This document shows, one piece after another, positions 1,911 through 9,400 of a stretch of DNA of 37,062 nt; position 1 is the stretch's first letter, and the number at the start of each line of letters is the position of its first letter. Location: positions 1 to 37,062 of the forward strand of contig JAIXOE010000058.1 of the NCBI GenBank assembly GCA_027486895.1, read 5' to 3'. The position numbers and the translations under genes were made by a program. The notes beneath the pieces are model-generated. The model did not search any database, was not told the origin of the DNA, and worked only from the letters and a program-made list of their open reading frames with translations. The DNA is from Sphingomonadales bacterium (GTDB taxonomy: Bacteria > Pseudomonadota > Alphaproteobacteria > Sphingomonadales > Sphingomonadaceae).

Positions 1911-4043
1911 TTGGACCATTTGCGATTTGATGCTCCGGACGCGACATTGATATTGGCCTGCGGCCAGGGTGCGCCGCCGTCGGTGATCTATTGGGGTGCC
2001 GCTCTGCCGCCAAATGTTGAAGCGGCGCAGTTGGAAAGCCTGTTTTTTCGGCAAGGCATGCATGGCGTTGCGGATGTTGCACTGTCCCTATCCTTGGCGA
2101 TGGAGCCCGGCTTAGGCCATCCAATGATGCAAGGGTTTGCTGCACATCGGGAGGGCAAGGACTGGTGTAGCCTTTTCGAAGTCGGCAAAGTTGAAACGCG
2201 ACCGCATGGCGCGAAAATCATATGCCGTGATGAACGCACGCGGCTTGGGCTCGAATATGAAATCGATGTCGACCCTGCCACGGGTGTTTTACGTATCCGC
2301 ACGCATTTGACCAATTATGGCGCGACTGCGCTCGATGTGACTGAAGTGATGACGGCCTACCTGCCTGTGCCTGAACGCATGACCGAGATTATCGGATTTA
2401 CGGGTCGCTGGACTCAGGAGTTCACCCAAGATCGGGTAAAGCGAAGCGCAGGAACATATCTGCGGGAAAACCGCAGCGGACGGACCTCGCATTTTAGCTA
2501 CCCCGCAATGCTGTTGGCGACGTCCAGCGCGAACGAAAGTGCGGGCGAGGCTTATGGCTTCCATCTGGCATGGAGCGGCAACCATCGCCTGCGTGTGGAC
2601 TCGCTCACCGACGGACGCGTGTTGACCAGCCTCGGTGCGCTTTTGCTCCCCGGCGAGGTTCGGCTGGCACCGGGGGCAAGTTACGCGAGCCCTGAGATTG
2701 TTGCCGCATATAGCGCCGATGGTTTCAGCGCGCTGAGCCGCAAATTCCATGAACATGTAAGGACAAAATTGCTTCGCCCCGAAATGCGTGCCAGGCCGCG
2801 GCCCGTAAATTACAATACCTGGGAAGCGGTGTATTTCGGCCATGATGTCGATAGACTGAAAGAGTTGGCAACCCGCGCTGCCGAAATCGGTGTTGAGCGC
2901 TTTGTTCTGGATGACGGATGGTTCGGGGGCAGGCGGCATGACCGTGCCGGGCTGGGCGATTGGGTTGTGTCGAACGATGTTTACCCCGATGGCATAAAAC
3001 CACTGGTTGATCATGTGACGGCGTTGGGCATGGAATTCGGACTTTGGTTTGAACCTGAAATGGTCAACCCCGACAGCGAACTGTTTCGCGCACATCCGGA
3101 CTGGGTGCTTGGCGTGGAAGGCGTAGACCAAGTGCCGTTCCGGTCGCAACTTGCGCTGGACATTAGCCGGCCAGAGGTTGCGGACTATTTGTTCCACGCA
3201 ATCGATGCGGTGCTGCGCGACCACGATATCAGCTACATCAAATGGGACATGAACCGCGATTTGAGCCATCCGGGCGGTTCATTGGGCACCGCGAAGGCGT
3301 TCGCACAGGTAACCGCGCTTTACGCGCTGCTTGATCGCGTTCGCACCGCGCATCCCGGTGTCGAAATCGAGAGCTGCTCATCGGGCGGTGCGCGCGCCGA
3401 CATGGGTGTGCTGGCGCATAGTGATCGCGTCTGGACCTCCGACAGCAATGATGCGCTTGACCGGCAATATATCCAAAGGGGCGCGAGCTTCTTCCTGCCG
3501 CCCGAAGTGATGGGCTGTCATGTGGGACCAGCCCGATGTCATGTGAGTGGACGCCGGCTGTCGATGGACATGCGCGCCGCGACCGCATTTCCGGGGCATA
3601 TGGGGCTTGAGCTGAACTTGCTGACGGAACGGCAGGCAGATCTTGAAACGCTGAAATCTGCCATAGCCCTCCACAAGCGCCACCGCGCGTTGCTCCATGA
3701 TGGCGACTTGGTCAGGATCGATACGTCGCCGCAGATTGTTGCAAATGGCGTCGTCGCGCGTGACTGTTCCGAGGCGCTATATGCCGTCGCCTATGTCTTG
3801 AGCGACCCGCAGGTTTTGCCAGAACGCTTGCGGTTTGCCGGTTTGGACCCAGCAAGAAATTATCTGGTCACGCTGATCTGGCCGACAAGCTGGCAAGCCA
3901 TTAAGGGCCCGTCGGCAATCGAGATGCTGGGGCTGCATGATGATGGCGCGACGCTAAGCGGTGCCGCGCTGATGCACGGCGGGCTGCAACTACCCCATGC
4001 ACATCCCGAAACCTGCTTGCTGTTTTACGCCGTAGCTGTCTGA
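1911..4043 (+). CDS. Alpha-galactosidase, glycoside hydrolase family 36
   Basis: A 710-residue protein, full length for GH36 (about 700-740), which removes terminal alpha-galactosyl residues with retention of configuration. The N-terminal beta-sandwich (about 1-290) leads into the catalytic barrel, which carries WFEPEMVNPDSELF, the nucleophile motif IKWDMNR (Asp446), SCSSGGARADMGVL, and the acid/base region WTSDSNDALDR (Asp511). No signal peptide is seen, so it should act in the cytoplasm on an imported substrate. I chose TTG 1911 because GGGGGAG lies 6-8 bp upstream; an in-frame TTG at 1896 would overlap that ribosome site. It is divergent from the symporter-glpK pair and its 3' end overlaps the convergent UdgX gene by 19 bp. 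Enzyme family is near certain; raffinose-type sugar versus galactosyl-glycerol substrate is open. Confidence 0.93.
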   Translation: MDHLRFDAPDATLILACGQGAPPSVIYWGAALPPNVEAAQLESLFFRQGMHGVADVALSLSLAMEPGLGHPMMQGFAAHREGKDWCSLFEVGKVETRPHGAKIICRDERTRLGLEYEIDVDPATGVLRIRTHLTNYGATALDVTEVMTAYLPVPERMTEIIGFTGRWTQEFTQDRVKRSAGTYLRENRSGRTSHFSYPAMLLATSSANESAGEAYGFHLAWSGNHRLRVDSLTDGRVLTSLGALLLPGEVRLAPGASYASPEIVAAYSADGFSALSRKFHEHVRTKLLRPEMRARPRPVNYNTWEAVYFGHDVDRLKELATRAAEIGVERFVLDDGWFGGRRHDRAGLGDWVVSNDVYPDGIKPLVDHVTALGMEFGLWFEPEMVNPDSELFRAHPDWVLGVEGVDQVPFRSQLALDISRPEVADYLFHAIDAVLRDHDISYIKWDMNRDLSHPGGSLGTAKAFAQVTALYALLDRVRTAHPGVEIESCSSGGARADMGVLAHSDRVWTSDSNDALDRQYIQRGASFFLPPEVMGCHVGPARCHVSGRRLSMDMRAATAFPGHMGLELNLLTERQADLETLKSAIALHKRHRALLHDGDLVRIDTSPQIVANGVVARDCSEALYAVAYVLSDPQVLPERLRFAGLDPARNYLVTLIWPTSWQAIKGPSAIEMLGLHDDGATLSGAALMHGGLQLPHAHPETCLLFYAVAV

Positions 4044-5413
4044 ATCGTGCCGATACGGTCAAGGGCTTGTGATAGGTCCGCTACGAAGTTCTGCCTTTCG
4101 CGTGCCGCCGCTTCTGCATCGGGAAGGCGCAACAAATAGCTTGGGTGGATGGTCACCAGCACCGGAACGCCTTCAATGCTCTCCAAAATGTGGCCTCGGT
4201 TGGGGGTTACGGCGACATTGTGGCCTGTGAGACTGCGCGCTGCCGTTGCACCCAGCGCCACAATTAAGTCCGGCTGCACCATTTCTATTTCGCGCTTCAG
4301 CCACCAGCGGCAGTGGTTGATCTCTCCGACATTAGGACGATCATGAATGCGGCGTTTGCCCTCTTGCTTGAATTTGAAATGTTTCACCGCGTTGGTGACA
4401 TAGACCTGCGCACGATCAATTCCGGCTTCGCGTAGCGCGGCGTTGAATATCTGCCCTGCAGGCCCCACAAAAGGCTGCCCCTGCATATCCTCCTGATCAC
4501 CCGGCTGTTCGCCGACAAACATCAGGCGCGCGCGCTCAGGCCCTTCGCCAAAGACGATCTGGGTGGCCGGACCAAATAACGGGCAGCGACGACAGCGCGC
4601 CGCCTCGGCATGCAGCGAATTTAATGTGTCGGCAACGGGTGCAGCGGTTTCTTTTTCGATCATCGCCAACTCGCGATTTCGCGCGGATTGAATGAGTTCG
4701 GACACCAAAGCTGTCTCGGGCATATTGTGCCAATATTTCTTGGGCATTTCTTTCAGCATCGCCTTCACCTTCAGGCGGGCAGGATTGAAAATCGACCCGT
4801 AATAAGTTTTCCACTGCTCCTCGATGGCATCTTCGGTGGGTGCATCTTCCTTTTGCGCTGCGGGGCCCTCTAACAATCTGTCCTTGTCCCAATGAATGGA
4901 AAGTTTCGGCGTCAAAATCGACCAGCGCATGCCTGCGAAACGCCGGACAAAGAAGGACGCGTTCGTGCGGACAATGTGGTGCTCGGGTTCGAACCATGCG
5001 ACGAAATGCTCGTCACCATCTTGCTCAATTCGGCGAAAGCGCACGAAGGCGCGCATCTTGTGAATGTCACGCCGCACCGTTTTGGCCATGACATCAAGCT
5101 TGCGCAGCAAGGGATCTGCACGGTCGCCCATGTGGCGCTTACGCGCCTTCAAATCGATCAGCAGCTGATACAGCAAGCCAAAGCGTTCCGGGTCGGAATG
5201 GCAAATGACTGACCGGGACAGTTCGGCAAATCCCTTTGGCACGCCGATGGGCGCAGCCTCAATATTGCTTTCGGGGTTTGCAAACAGGTCTGTGCGTTGT
5301 TCGCCGACTTGCCACACAATGTCCGCTGGACGCGCGCCAAGCCGCAACAGGCCGCGGCATTGTTCCCGCCAGCCGTCAAAATCATCTTCATGTCCAAGCC
5401 GGGCGGTAATCAC
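4025..5413 (-). CDS. udgX: UdgX family uracil-DNA-binding protein fused to DUF4130
   Basis: 462 residues in two parts. Residues about 1-255 match DUF4130, a domain linked to radical SAM and uracil-glycosylase genes. Residues about 265-462 form a uracil-DNA glycosylase of the UdgX type. The UDG part has a Cys274-x2-Cys277 pair plus Cys368 for the Fe-S cluster, the GEQPGDQED motif (301-309), the UdgX-specific loop KRRIH (353-357) and a C-terminal HPSYLLR. In mycobacterial UdgX the histidine of KRRIH forms a covalent bond with the deoxyribose at the uracil site, so the protein stays attached to the DNA; His357 is the equivalent here. The GTG start overlaps the stop of the radical SAM gene by 4 bp (GTGA), implying coupled translation. 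Damage-induced expression is likely from the LexA box at 6654-6668. Confidence 0.92.
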   Translation of the reverse strand: MITARLGHEDDFDGWREQCRGLLRLGARPADIVWQVGEQRTDLFANPESNIEAAPIGVPKGFAELSRSVICHSDPERFGLLYQLLIDLKARKRHMGDRADPLLRKLDVMAKTVRRDIHKMRAFVRFRRIEQDGDEHFVAWFEPEHHIVRTNASFFVRRFAGMRWSILTPKLSIHWDKDRLLEGPAAQKEDAPTEDAIEEQWKTYYGSIFNPARLKVKAMLKEMPKKYWHNMPETALVSELIQSARNRELAMIEKETAAPVADTLNSLHAEAARCRRCPLFGPATQIVFGEGPERARLMFVGEQPGDQEDMQGQPFVGPAGQIFNAALREAGIDRAQVYVTNAVKHFKFKQEGKRRIHDRPNVGEINHCRWWLKREIEMVQPDLIVALGATAARSLTGHNVAVTPNRGHILESIEGVPVLVTIHPSYLLRLPDAEAAARERQNFVADLSQALDRIGTIQTATA

Positions 5414-6651
5414 GCAAACAACTCAAGCTGATGCACCTTGGGCGCAACCGATGCGCGCAGATGCTCCATGTCGGTCAATGCGCCCGGGCTCCAGCCTTCA
5501 GCAGTAATGAATGGCCGGATTTTCGCGATGGACACGGTAAGCCTGCCGACATCCTCAAGCCGCAACCTCCGCCAGCGCCGTGCCTTAACAATCGCGTCGA
5601 CGGCCTTCGTCCCAAGCCCGGGAACCCGCCACAGCATCGCCTTTGGCGCGCTGTTCACATCCAACGGAAAGTGCGCACGATGCTTCAGCGCCCAAGCTAG
5701 TTTGGGATCAATGTCGAGCGGCAGCATGCCATCGGCATCAGCTGCATCGACAACCTCTTGCGGGGCAAAGCCATAAAAACGCAGCAACCAATCTGATTGA
5801 TAGAGCCGGTGCTCGCGCATCAGTGGCGGGCGTTGCACTGGCAAAACGGCACTCGCGTCGGGAATAGGGCTGAACGCCGAATAATAGACACGGCGCAAGC
5901 CAAAGCGATCATAAAGGCCGTTGGCGCGTCGGACGATATCGCTGTCTGTCGCGCTGTCCGCTCCAACGATCATCTGCGTGGATTGACCCGCAGGCGCGAA
6001 GTTTGGCGCGCTTCGGTATTTCTTTTTCGCATCGCGTCCGTCGAGAATGGATTCCTTGAGACCACCCATGGCACCTTCAATCCGCTCTTCCGACTTTTCG
6101 GGCGCAAGTTTTTGCAGGCCCGCACGCGTCGGCAATTCGACGTTGATCGATAGCCGGTCGGCATGACGCCCTGCGGCCTCAAGCAGCTCTGGATCAGCGT
6201 CGGGAATGGTTTTGAGATGGATGTAGCCGCGGAAATCATGGTCTTCGCGCAAACTGCGTGCGACCTCGACGATTTGCTCCATCGTGTAGTTCGAGCTTTT
6301 GATGATGCCCGACGAGAGAAACAGACCCTCGATATAATTCCGCTTATAAAAATTGAGCGTGAGGTCGACCACTTCTTTCGGCGTAAACCGCGCGCGGCGG
6401 ACATTAGAGCTCTTGCGATTGATGCAATAATGGCAGTCGAAAATGCAGCTGTTGGTCAGCAAGATTTTTAACAGCGAAATGCAGCGACCATCGGGCGCAT
6501 AGGCATGACAAATTCCCATACCTTCAGTCGATCCGATACCGCCTGATTTGCTGCTGGACCGTTTCGACGTACCTGAAGACGCGCAGGAAGCGTCATATTT
6601 TGCGGCGTCGGCAAGAATCGCGAGCTTTTCTGAAATTTGAAGTTGAGACAT
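5410..6651 (-). CDS. Putative DNA modification/repair radical SAM protein (UDG-linked type)
   Basis: 413 residues. The radical SAM cluster motif is Cys69-x3-Cys73-x2-Cys76 (NSCIFDCHYC), preceded by the family signature ASCASSG and GIGSTEGMGICHAYAPDGRC. The C-terminal third contains a helix-hairpin-helix (VPGLGTKAVDAIVKARRW), which usually binds DNA non-specifically. This family is known only as the radical SAM protein that travels with UDG-type and DUF4130 proteins; its reaction is unknown. I chose ATG 6651 because homologous sequence begins within a few residues of it; the open frame continues upstream through the control region to about 6912. The start codon lies only 2 bp from the LexA box. 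It is coupled to udgX by a 4-bp overlap, so both proteins probably act on the same lesion or DNA structure (inference). Confidence 0.92.
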   Translation of the reverse strand: MSQLQISEKLAILADAAKYDASCASSGTSKRSSSKSGGIGSTEGMGICHAYAPDGRCISLLKILLTNSCIFDCHYCINRKSSNVRRARFTPKEVVDLTLNFYKRNYIEGLFLSSGIIKSSNYTMEQIVEVARSLREDHDFRGYIHLKTIPDADPELLEAAGRHADRLSINVELPTRAGLQKLAPEKSEERIEGAMGGLKESILDGRDAKKKYRSAPNFAPAGQSTQMIVGADSATDSDIVRRANGLYDRFGLRRVYYSAFSPIPDASAVLPVQRPPLMREHRLYQSDWLLRFYGFAPQEVVDAADADGMLPLDIDPKLAWALKHRAHFPLDVNSAPKAMLWRVPGLGTKAVDAIVKARRWRRLRLEDVGRLTVSIAKIRPFITAEGWSPGALTDMEHLRASVAPKVHQLELFA

Positions 6652-6653
6652 AT

Positions 6654-6668
6654 GTTCTGTATATGTTC
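6654..6668. promoter_or_regulatory. LexA (SOS) box, GTTC-N7-GTTC
   Basis: GTTC (6654-6657), seven bases, GTTC (6665-6668): an exact match to the direct-repeat LexA operator of alphaproteobacteria such as Caulobacter. It sits 2 bp upstream of the radical SAM start and about 50 bp before the longest possible start of the exonuclease gene. It could therefore repress both arms of the repair island. Position, exact motif and repair-gene context agree; no binding data are available. Confidence 0.8.
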
Positions 6669-6719
6669 TTGAAGAAGCGGTGTCTATGCGCGATAGGAAA
6701 ATTGTTTTCAGTTTGAAAG

Positions 6720-7832
6720 TTGGTGGAGAGGTTAAGCCGGAGTTCCCGTGAACTTTCGCTGACACATGCGGTTTACATCGCATCTGCCACTTCCCATATT
6801 CAGACCAAGAAAAGGACATATGATATCTCCCGAACCGCCGCCCAACATTGGATAGAGCCGCATGCGCATGGCATCTATGTGAAGCCTGCAGACATGTGGA
6901 TTGATCCCTCACGTCCTGCCGAGCGCGCGCTTGTCACGCATGGCCACGCCGACCATGCACGCAGCGGTCATGGTGCGGTATGGGCTACACCCGAAACGCT
7001 GGCTATCATGGCACTGCGTTACGGAACCGAAATGGGTACGCCAGTGCCTTATGGTGAGGGGTTCGAACATGGCGGCGTGAAGATAAGCTTTCACCCTGCA
7101 GGCCATGTGCTTGGGTCAGCGCAGATATTGCTTGAACATGCGGGCGAGCGGGTTGTTGTGACGGGGGATTACAAGCGACGCTTTGACCCGACATGCACGC
7201 CGTTCGAACCAGTTGCCTGCGATGTTTTGATTACCGAAGCAACCTTTGGTCTTCCCGTATTCGCGCATCCGCCTATTGAGGGCGAGATCGCCAAATTGCT
7301 GTCTGCGCGCGAGGCCAATGTCGATGGTTGCATCGTTGTGGGTGCCTATGCGCTGGGTAAGGCGCAGCGCGTCATCGCTGAGCTGCGCAGGGCTGGCTAT
7401 GATGCGCCGATCTATATCCACGGCGCGATGCAGAAAATGTGTGAGTTGTACGTCGCGCACAATGTTCCGCTGGGCGAATTGATCATGGCAACTGGCCTTG
7501 CGAAAGCGGAGCTGAAAGGCGCGATTGTTATAGCGCCGCCCTCTGCGATGAACGACCGTTGGGCACGGCGGCTGCCTGACCCCATAACCGCAATGGCATC
7601 AGGATGGATGCGCGTGCGCCAACGCGCACGACAGCGTAATGTCGAACTTCCGCTTGTCATATCCGACCATGCCGACTGGACCGAATTGACCGACACGTTG
7701 CTTGAGCTACGTCCTTCAGAAACCTGGATTACCCATGGCCGCACCGATGCGCTGGGACGGTGGTGCGAACTGCACCAGTTAAAGGCGCGCGCGCTTGACC
7801 TGGTTGGCCGTGAAGATGAGGACGAAGGCTGA
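6720..7832 (+). CDS. Ligase-associated DNA damage response exonuclease (metallo-beta-lactamase fold)
   Basis: The reading frame gives 370 residues from TTG 6720; homology starts near QHWIEPHAHGIYVKPADMW (residue 42). The metal-binding HGHADH motif is at 74-79, followed by GSAQILLE, TGDYKRR and a late SDHADW, the layout of MBL/beta-CASP-type nucleases. The family is found beside the 'cisplatin damage response' ATP-dependent ligase and is thought to trim DNA ends before sealing. Its stop overlaps the ligase start by one base (TGATG). The start is unclear: no ATG or GTG lies in frame between 6723 and the conserved region. An ATC at 6825, 8 bp after AAGGA, would give a family-length N terminus, so the true start may be 6825. 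Function is secure; the first 35 residues may not be translated. Confidence 0.88.
   Translation: MVERLSRSSRELSLTHAVYIASATSHIQTKKRTYDISRTAAQHWIEPHAHGIYVKPADMWIDPSRPAERALVTHGHADHARSGHGAVWATPETLAIMALRYGTEMGTPVPYGEGFEHGGVKISFHPAGHVLGSAQILLEHAGERVVVTGDYKRRFDPTCTPFEPVACDVLITEATFGLPVFAHPPIEGEIAKLLSAREANVDGCIVVGAYALGKAQRVIAELRRAGYDAPIYIHGAMQKMCELYVAHNVPLGELIMATGLAKAELKGAIVIAPPSAMNDRWARRLPDPITAMASGWMRVRQRARQRNVELPLVISDHADWTELTDTLLELRPSETWITHGRTDALGRWCELHQLKARALDLVGREDEDEG
6812..6827 (+). promoter_or_regulatory. Ribosome site that may fix a non-ATG start for the exonuclease
   Basis: AAGGA at 6812-6816 is 8 bp before an in-frame ATC (6825-6827) and only 3 bp before an out-of-frame ATG (6820). That ATG opens just 11 codons and stops at TAG. 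Translation from ATC would begin 19 residues before the conserved IYVKPADMW. This may be a rare ATC start, a short leader peptide, or a sign of a 1-bp error or frameshift. Confidence 0.35.
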
Positions 7833-9400
7833 TGCAAGCTTTTGCGGCGCTCATCGACGGCTTGATCTACACGCGATCGCGCGATTTGAAGATCCGCCTG
7901 ATCGCCGATTACCTACGCGTGACGCCGGACCCCGATCGCGGCTGGGCTTTGGCGGCACTTGCGGGAACGCTTAACATTGCCACCGTCAAATCGGCAGCCA
8001 TTCGCGCGATGGCCGAGGAACGTTTCGATCCCATGCTGTTCCGCATGAGCCGCGATTATGTTGGCGACACTGCCGAAACGGTGGCGCTGATGTGGCCGGA
8101 CAACAGTGGCAGCGCTGCTGCACCGACGGTGTCCGAAGTCATCGACCTGTTGAACAGCACCAGCCGCGCGCGCGCTCCGGCGGTGCTGGCAGAGTTAATG
8201 GATCGGCTGGATGCCAATGGCCGTTACGCGCTGCTAAAGCTTGCAACTGGTGGCATGCGGGTGGGGATTTCCGCGCGGCTCGCCAAAACTGCGTTCGGGC
8301 AAGCCTTTGGCGTTTCAGTCGACGATGTCGAAGAGGTATGGCACGCGCTTCGCCCGCCCTATGCTGAGCTTTTTGCATGGGGCGAAGGGCGCACCGAACG
8401 ACCCGATCCCGCCGATAGCGCGTTTTTCCGACCCTTCATGCTCGCGCATCCGCTTGAAGATGGCAGCGTTCAGCTCGATGACTTTGTCGCCGAGTGGAAA
8501 TGGGATGGCATCCGGATCCAGATTGCGTCGACTGGCGGCGAAACGCGGTTGTTCAGCCGTGGCGGCGACGAGGTAACGGCATCGTTTCCCGAAATAGCGG
8601 CGGCGTTCAATGGCATTGGCGTGGTCGACGGCGAATTGCTGGTGCGCGGCGAAGTGCAGGGCGGCGAGGCGGCGAGCTTTAACGCGTTGCAGCAACGATT
8701 GGGCCGCAAGAATGTCACGGTCGCGATGCAGGCGGAATATCCAGTTTTTGTCCGCCTGTACGACATATTGTTCGACGGCGCGGAGGATTTGCGCAGTCAG
8801 CCATGGACCGCGCGGCGTGACCGGCTTGAACTTTTCACGGCCAATCTGGACTCTGCGCGTTTCGATTTATCCGCCGTCATTGAAGCGCGCGATTTCGAGC
8901 ATCTGGCCGAGATCCGTGCCGCCGCGCGCGAAGCGGCGATTGAAGGCGTGATGCTTAAGCGGCGCGATTCTCCCTATCTCGCGGGGCGTAAAGTCGGGCT
9001 TTGGTACAAATGGAAACGTGAACCGCTCGTTGCGGATTGCGTGATGATGTATGCGCAGCGGGGGAGCGGAAAACGCTCCTCATTTTATTCCGACTATACC
9101 TTCGGCTGCTGGACCGAAGAGGGCACTTTGTTGCCGGTTGGAAAGGCCTATTCGGGGTTCAGTGATGAAGAACTGAAATGGCTCGACCGCTTTGTCCGGA
9201 ACAATACGGTCGCGCGCTTTGGTCCAGTCCGCGAAGTGGAAAAGTCGCTGGTGCTTGAGGTCGCGTTTGACGCGGTGCACCAATCCAAGCGCCACAAATC
9301 AGGCGTGGCGATGCGGTTTCCACGTATCTCGCGTTTGCGCAGGGACAAGCCTGCTGAAGAGGCGGACACCATTGCCGCCTTGCGCGCGATGTTCGACTAA
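7832..9400 (+). CDS. ATP-dependent DNA ligase, cisplatin damage response type
   Basis: 522 residues, the normal length of bacterial stand-alone ATP-dependent ligases with an N-terminal DNA-binding domain. Residues about 1-200 are the helical DNA-binding domain. The nucleotidyltransferase follows with motif I EWKWDGIRI, where Lys223 is the adenylated residue. Other motifs are FSRGGDE, VVDGELLV (motif III), EGVMLKRRDSPY (motif IV) and WYKWKRE (motif V). The OB-fold domain fills the C terminus. It seals nicks and is distinct from the NAD-dependent replicative LigA. Translation is coupled to the exonuclease (TGATG). In many alphaproteobacteria a DEXH helicase and the PdeM endonuclease follow; here the next gene is a convergent hydrolase, so those partners are not adjacent. 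Confidence 0.95.
   Translation: MQAFAALIDGLIYTRSRDLKIRLIADYLRVTPDPDRGWALAALAGTLNIATVKSAAIRAMAEERFDPMLFRMSRDYVGDTAETVALMWPDNSGSAAAPTVSEVIDLLNSTSRARAPAVLAELMDRLDANGRYALLKLATGGMRVGISARLAKTAFGQAFGVSVDDVEEVWHALRPPYAELFAWGEGRTERPDPADSAFFRPFMLAHPLEDGSVQLDDFVAEWKWDGIRIQIASTGGETRLFSRGGDEVTASFPEIAAAFNGIGVVDGELLVRGEVQGGEAASFNALQQRLGRKNVTVAMQAEYPVFVRLYDILFDGAEDLRSQPWTARRDRLELFTANLDSARFDLSAVIEARDFEHLAEIRAAAREAAIEGVMLKRRDSPYLAGRKVGLWYKWKREPLVADCVMMYAQRGSGKRSSFYSDYTFGCWTEEGTLLPVGKAYSGFSDEELKWLDRFVRNNTVARFGPVREVEKSLVLEVAFDAVHQSKRHKSGVAMRFPRISRLRRDKPAEEADTIAALRAMFD

Follow-up and report, generated by a model that had tools for sequence, protein, structure and literature searches.

Do four DNA-repair genes that stand back to back around a single LexA box belong to one damage-induced pathway, and does that box switch all of them? 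The question is raised by a 37,062-nt stretch of a Sphingomonadales bacterium (assembly GCA_027486895.1, contig JAIXOE010000058.1), which as a whole is called the window here. In it, a radical S-adenosylmethionine (SAM) gene and a gene for a DUF4130-UdgX fusion protein run leftward (the radical SAM arm), and genes for a metallo-beta-lactamase (MBL)-fold exonuclease and an ATP-dependent DNA ligase run rightward (the ligase arm). A preliminary description of this DNA had proposed two divergent coupled pairs, a perfect LexA box in the only control region between them, and one pathway. Open reading frames and family matches bear out the two pairs, with a GTGA overlap between the radical SAM stop and the UdgX start and a TGATG overlap between the exonuclease stop and the ligase start, and a perfect GTTC-N7-GTTC box (GTTCTGTATATGTTC) does lie between them (Table 1). 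The idea of a single, shared control region fared worse: the box overlaps the predicted radical SAM promoter alone, and a second promoter-like site precedes the exonuclease gene. Of the proposed pathway, the functional link between the arms gains support from gene order and co-occurrence in other genomes, but the shared switch does not.

We favour, at a probability of roughly 0.6, the reading that two known repair modules lie head to head, an SOS-controlled radical SAM-UdgX module and an exonuclease-ligase module with its own promoter, the latter working downstream of the former. The promoter of the first module is probably leaderless, and LexA would bind a box that contains its -10 element, keeping the radical SAM and DUF4130-UdgX genes off until damage occurs. 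UdgX is predicted to excise uracil and then, by way of His357, to become bonded to the abasic site; the presumed substrate of the radical SAM enzyme would be DNA bases or this adduct; and the LigB-type module (exonuclease plus ATP-dependent ligase), expressed from its own promoter, would trim and seal; the proposed order is UdgX capture, radical SAM chemistry, resection and sealing. If this is true, tying the UdgX and LigB modules to one SOS gene set gives each of them a testable partner and a damage signal.

Linkage of the two arms across genomes

Adjacency of the arms is not peculiar to this genome. In genus g6, all nine sampled genomes with both arms carry the radical SAM, UdgX, exonuclease and ligase genes in one co-directional run; a LexA box closely precedes the radical SAM gene, and TGATG stands ahead of the exonuclease gene in each of the nine. 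At one of these loci (L213), the only g6 case in which the reading frame was worked through, the UdgX stop overlaps the exonuclease start; in another genome (G086) a contig ends inside the ligase gene, the remainder of which is on another contig. The radical SAM genes of g6 are not close kin of the window's: in a tree, the window's clade (5 rows) and that of g6 (9 rows) are separate, each at 100/100, and a 35-row sphingomonad clade (100/100) includes the former and excludes the latter, and therefore the joining of the arms looks independent. The run of four genes behind a LexA box in g6 suggests that the exonuclease-ligase module works downstream of the radical SAM-UdgX module and that the four genes may work together; the g6 genomes offer all four in a single run.

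A functional partnership of the arms is also supported, at the level of genome comparison, by their co-occurrence. In the order sample of 297 genomes, the radical SAM protein and the ligase occur together in 168, the radical SAM protein alone in 6, the ligase alone in 38 and neither in 85 (Fisher P 2e-36), and among the 387 genomes of the class sample, sorted by eye, 25 hold the radical SAM protein and the exonuclease, 4 the radical SAM protein only, 88 the exonuclease only and 270 neither (P 4e-11); both P values are uncorrected for descent and for genome size and should not be read as probabilities. The ligase is thus present in 168 of the 174 radical SAM genomes of the order sample, and it is over the cut-off in 20 of 24 radical SAM genomes outside the family. 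This asymmetry, in which the radical SAM protein is rarely without the ligase and the ligase is often without the radical SAM protein, would fit a ligase arm that is a general tool relied on by radical SAM-UdgX.

A stronger version would make the four genes one SOS-induced pathway, in which UdgX marks uracil or related lesions covalently, the base is processed or the adduct released by the radical SAM enzyme, and resection and sealing fall to the LigB-type pair. We put it forward tentatively, as somewhat doubtful; it would be in keeping with arms that have been joined at least twice (head to head here, as a four-gene run in g6) and with a genome of genus g179 (G556) in which a boxed exonuclease-ligase arm accompanies a radical SAM gene with its own box (L233).

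A competing explanation, possible but in our judgement rather unlikely, is that two independently useful modules have become neighbours by chance, the SOS box serving the radical SAM arm alone and the ligase arm being unrelated to it. Several observations, besides the limit on the P values, lean towards it and weigh against the reading that we favour. Each arm stands alone in some genomes at this very locus: both are present in the window, L212, L065 and L067; L066 has, at this locus, the radical SAM arm and its box alone; and three loci of the window's genus (L209, L210 and L211) have the order SMC, hydrolase, ligase, exonuclease, glycosidase, with neither the radical SAM arm nor the box, and therefore either arm occurs without the other here. 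Throughout the order sample, the arms lie within 5 kb of each other in 11 of the 168 genomes that have both families over the cut-off (positions compared computationally in 121 and by eye in 47), and these 11 belong to two genera, the window's own (g1, two genomes) and g6 (nine). We therefore rejected adjacency as an order-wide trait; elsewhere the arms are farther apart, for example by about 8 kb on one strand in G133, about 19 kb in G033 and G163, and 38 kb in G054. The ligase arm is also often on its own (ligase in 38/206 genomes of the order, exonuclease in 88/113 of the class), and it has a separate promoter-like site. No box was found upstream of any of 22 exonuclease genes of other sphingomonads, with 405-517 bp upstream examined (the exonuclease was in the stretch at 23 of 30 ligase loci, one of them with too little upstream sequence), nor at 27 of the 30 best class-level exonuclease loci. 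The remaining three (L245, L246 and L249; control 0/30), all in g179, have an AT-rich LexA box that lies 52 nt ahead of the exonuclease domain, and in two of the genomes concerned, G398 (L249) and G484 (L246), the exonuclease-ligase arm has a perfect box and the genome has no radical SAM match; a LexA box on the ligase arm therefore needs no radical SAM arm. What speaks against chance is the g6 run behind a LexA box in nine of nine genomes, together with the strong co-occurrence; the g179 boxes, for their part, indicate that the ligase arm can come under LexA.

Two further cases of proximity, Pararhodobacter L143 and G573, have unrelated genes between the arms and were not counted as linked, and L135 has an exonuclease match alone within 10 kb.

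Protein families and earlier accounts

All four repair proteins score above their NCBIfam cut-offs (TIGR03915 and TIGR03914 for the fusion, TIGR03916, TIGR04122 and TIGR04120). The UdgX part reaches 310 bits against TIGR03914 (cut-off 189.95), and alignment to 6IOD reveals an R-loop KRRIH with the nucleophilic His, motif A GEQPG and motif B HPS..R, as defined in PMC10359453 (cited, like the other PMC papers below, from an excerpt), which describes the part that UdgX plays in physiology as largely unknown. His357 and GEQPG are invariant in 25 aligned rows, the window included. This part matches Mycobacterium smegmatis UdgX in sequence (E 3.4e-52) and shares its fold (6AIL and others; TM-score 0.85-0.92 normalised by target length, root-mean-square deviation 1.5-1.9) and its GEQPG, KRRIH and HPS motifs; unlike it, the window's UdgX is fused behind DUF4130, and its gene overlaps the radical SAM gene. 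The DUF4130 domain, recognised by Pfam as well as by TIGR03915, had no solved relative in a profile sequence search, where the sole match was a ribosomal protein at E 0.68, nor did one appear in the 50 fold matches listed.

The radical SAM protein reaches 570.9 bits against TIGR03916 (cut-off 343.5), a family that we take to be COG4277, and C69, C73 and C76 of its CX3CX2C motif are invariant in 31 rows. HydE and MiaB rank highest in the fold comparison, of which 50 matches out of 1249 were listed. Three cysteines ahead of that motif, C23, C48 and C57, are also invariant in the 31 rows and are possibly a second iron-sulfur site, which we offer only as a thought because they sit in a low-confidence part of the structure model (residues 21-57). 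The C-terminal VPGLG stretch is reminiscent of a helix-hairpin-helix DNA-binding motif; no search reported one.

We consider it unlikely that UdgX and the radical SAM enzyme act in mutagenesis or base modification instead of repair. A figure legend in PMC3765255, where DUF4130 is tied to radical SAM and uracil-DNA glycosylase (UDG), points that way, as do the many invariant residues of DUF4130 in the aligned rows, but the radical SAM protein has no spore photolyase (SplB) family match, a PDB sequence search found no such enzyme, the 50 fold matches listed (out of 1249) do not include one, and none of the eight scanned neighbouring proteins is a mutagenesis polymerase.

The favoured pairing of two repair modules meets earlier work on each side. 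SOS control of a UDG operon, COG1573-COG4277, has been predicted in Bacteroidetes in PMC8565304, which cites the same control for Verrucomicrobia and Alphaproteobacteria; the radical SAM arm resembles that operon in having a UDG-family and a COG4277 protein under LexA, and it differs in that the excerpt names for the operon no ligase-exonuclease partner, leaderless promoter or UdgX motifs. In Streptomyces, LexA binds a radical SAM gene whose family is not given (PMC9380542), a case without bearing on the link between the modules. On the other side, both the ligase and the ligase-associated exonuclease of a LigB-type module are here (TIGR04120, 762.8 bits against a cut-off of 400; TIGR04122, 452.1 against 325). 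The known operon of LigB, Lhr helicase, phosphodiesterase and MBL-fold nuclease (Ejaz and Shuman 2018, as given in PMC10140301, where its role and target are stated as not known) likewise has ligase and MBL-fold exonuclease adjoining. Unlike in that operon, the Lhr-type helicase (TIGR04121) is on another contig here (C25:2074-4437), beside a single other scanned neighbour with no family match; none of the scanned ligase neighbours is a phosphoesterase, the TIGR04123-type family itself not having been searched for.

The combined pathway had been thought undescribed. For the UDG-COG4277 pair, SOS control is already published (PMC8565304); for the link to the LigB-type pair the claim holds so far as the open PMC literature goes, since among the papers listed none was recognised as joining the two modules. 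The excerpts of PMC6120978, PMC1839093 and PMC8301817 have no bearing on the link, and the main text of a Caulobacter SOS paper (PMC12700426), its gene table lying outside this check, is without the terms 'ligase', 'glycosylase' and 'radical SAM'; PMC10776899 likewise contains none of the terms sought.

The LexA box and the two promoters

GTTC-N7-GTTC is the alphaproteobacterial LexA motif according to PMC8565304, and at this locus it lies over the predicted radical SAM promoter and is kept in orthologues. A box is found within 300 bp of the radical SAM gene in 108 of 110 relatives (L035-L144, a few genomes apparently being present twice; backwards-read control 0/110), at 26 of 30 radical SAM genes of the class sample (control 1/30) and at 21 of the 24 full-length genes outside the family that remain when the window's own gene, four family members and one fragment are taken from those 30. 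Two points count against SOS control of this arm. The box is missing in L035 and L076 among the relatives and in L215, L222 and L227 at class level. The bare pattern, moreover, occurs 91 times in the 2.87-Mb genome and its backwards-read control 134 times, and a bare match is weak evidence because the control is the commoner; we rejected the genome-wide count as proof of SOS control for the same reason, and a search for the palindromic GAAC-N10-GTTC proved irrelevant. The position of the box and its conservation in orthologues do more, on the comparisons made here, than its bare presence to link it to the arm.

In 100 of 139 radical SAM loci, exactly 2 nt separate the box from the start codon behind it, and the GAAC-N7-GAAC form lies near the start in 131 of them (one of the 139 rows being a fragment). 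In a profile of 96 distinct upstream sequences, a -35-like TNGAC stands out (T-35 88%, G-33 86%, C-31 78%, with C-36 also strong), TATA falls inside the box spacer, and little else upstream is conserved. The window fits this pattern, with TAGACA (6686-6681) and TATACA (6663-6658) ahead of the ATG (6651-6649), a geometry that puts the transcript start at or beside the A of the ATG and therefore predicts a leaderless mRNA. The radical SAM promoter is thus probably leaderless, with its -10 within the LexA operator, and the box, judged by this arrangement, is that of the radical SAM-UdgX arm.

Upstream of the exonuclease gene, about 100 bp from the box, TTTACA-N17-CATATT forms a promoter-like site. 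Taken alone the match is weak because 0.5 such matches are expected in shuffles for the one found; in a seven-genome alignment of the locus, a similar sequence is present in six, with a degraded one in L067, and the six include the three congeners with neither the radical SAM arm nor the box. The exonuclease-ligase arm thus appears to have a promoter-like site of its own, and the two modules of this genome would share a site, not a switch; it is possible that the arms respond independently to damage here. That the single LexA box represses the promoters on both sides of it in this genome and co-induces the arms is improbable, for although it lies between the two starts and only about 100 bp from the ligase-arm site, it covers the predicted radical SAM -10 alone, whereas LexA usually acts by covering the promoter, and genomes without the box still have sequence like the ligase-arm site.

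The likely start of the exonuclease is near 6825 instead of at 6720. In the congeners L210 and L211, the stretch from the upstream stop to the exonuclease domain contains no ATG, GTG, TTG or CTG, and the start codon may be ATC or ATT behind an AAGGA site.

Elsewhere in this genome, among 50 box loci surveyed from selected stretches (a subset of the 91 sites), other perfect boxes stand beside lexA, uvrA, radA and a PA0069-type radical SAM gene. Separately, a perfect AT-rich box (G000:C20:45284-45298) was seen 76 bp ahead of the gene for the ribonucleotide reductase alpha subunit, and an AT-rich box lies about 60 bp upstream of each of two genes for similar-looking proteins of about 212 aa with no NCBIfam match (G000:C27:80121 and G000:C42:11710).

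Locus layout and neighbouring genes

Table 1. Features of the four-gene repair locus, in window positions.
Feature	Position	Strand	Basis
DUF4130-UdgX fusion protein, 462 aa, GTG start; KRRIH loop with His357, GEQPG, HPSYLLR	4025..5413	-	Open reading frame; family, Pfam and structure matches
GTGA shared by the radical SAM stop and the UdgX start	5410..5413	-	
Radical SAM protein, TIGR03916, 413 aa; CX3CX2C = C69-C73-C76	5410..6651	-	ATG at 6651
LexA box, GAACATATACAGAAC on the - strand; 2 nt ahead of the radical SAM ATG	6654..6668	-	Motif and conservation
Radical SAM promoter, predicted -10 (TATACA), within the box spacer	6658..6663	-	Position in upstream profile (predicted)
Predicted -35 TAGACA, 17 nt from the -10	6681..6686	-	Upstream profile
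Promoter-like site of the exonuclease-ligase arm, TTTACA-N17-CATATT	6772..6800	+	Motif search against shuffles; seven-genome alignment
Possible ribosome site AAGGA (6812-6816) and putative non-standard start ATC (6825-6827) of the exonuclease	6812..6827	+	Congener comparison (predicted)
MBL-fold ligase-associated exonuclease, TIGR04122	6825..7832	+	Family match
ATP-dependent DNA ligase, TIGR04120 (LigB-type)	7832..9400	+	Family match

The four genes are flanked by an SMC and alpha/beta-hydrolase pair on one side and on the other by a glycosidase-like gene with a weak match to a beta-L-arabinopyranosidase model. The nearest named relatives of the radical SAM protein are those of the metagenome-assembled genome UBA658 (99%) and Sphingorhabdus profundilacus (93%).

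UdgX is in the stretch at 75 of 80 named radical SAM loci, the other five having none there, and the GTGA coupling is not general because the two genes are at least 150 bp apart at 44 of the 75. At one Sphingomonas locus (L091:11291-11797), the gap between radical SAM and UdgX holds a same-strand gene for a hemerythrin-domain protein (PF01814, from a test of one full copy), and several other gaps of this kind in Sphingomonas show protein starts that resemble it. At the Pararhodobacter locus (L143:5586-7684), a DUF4130 protein adjoins the radical SAM gene without a UdgX part.

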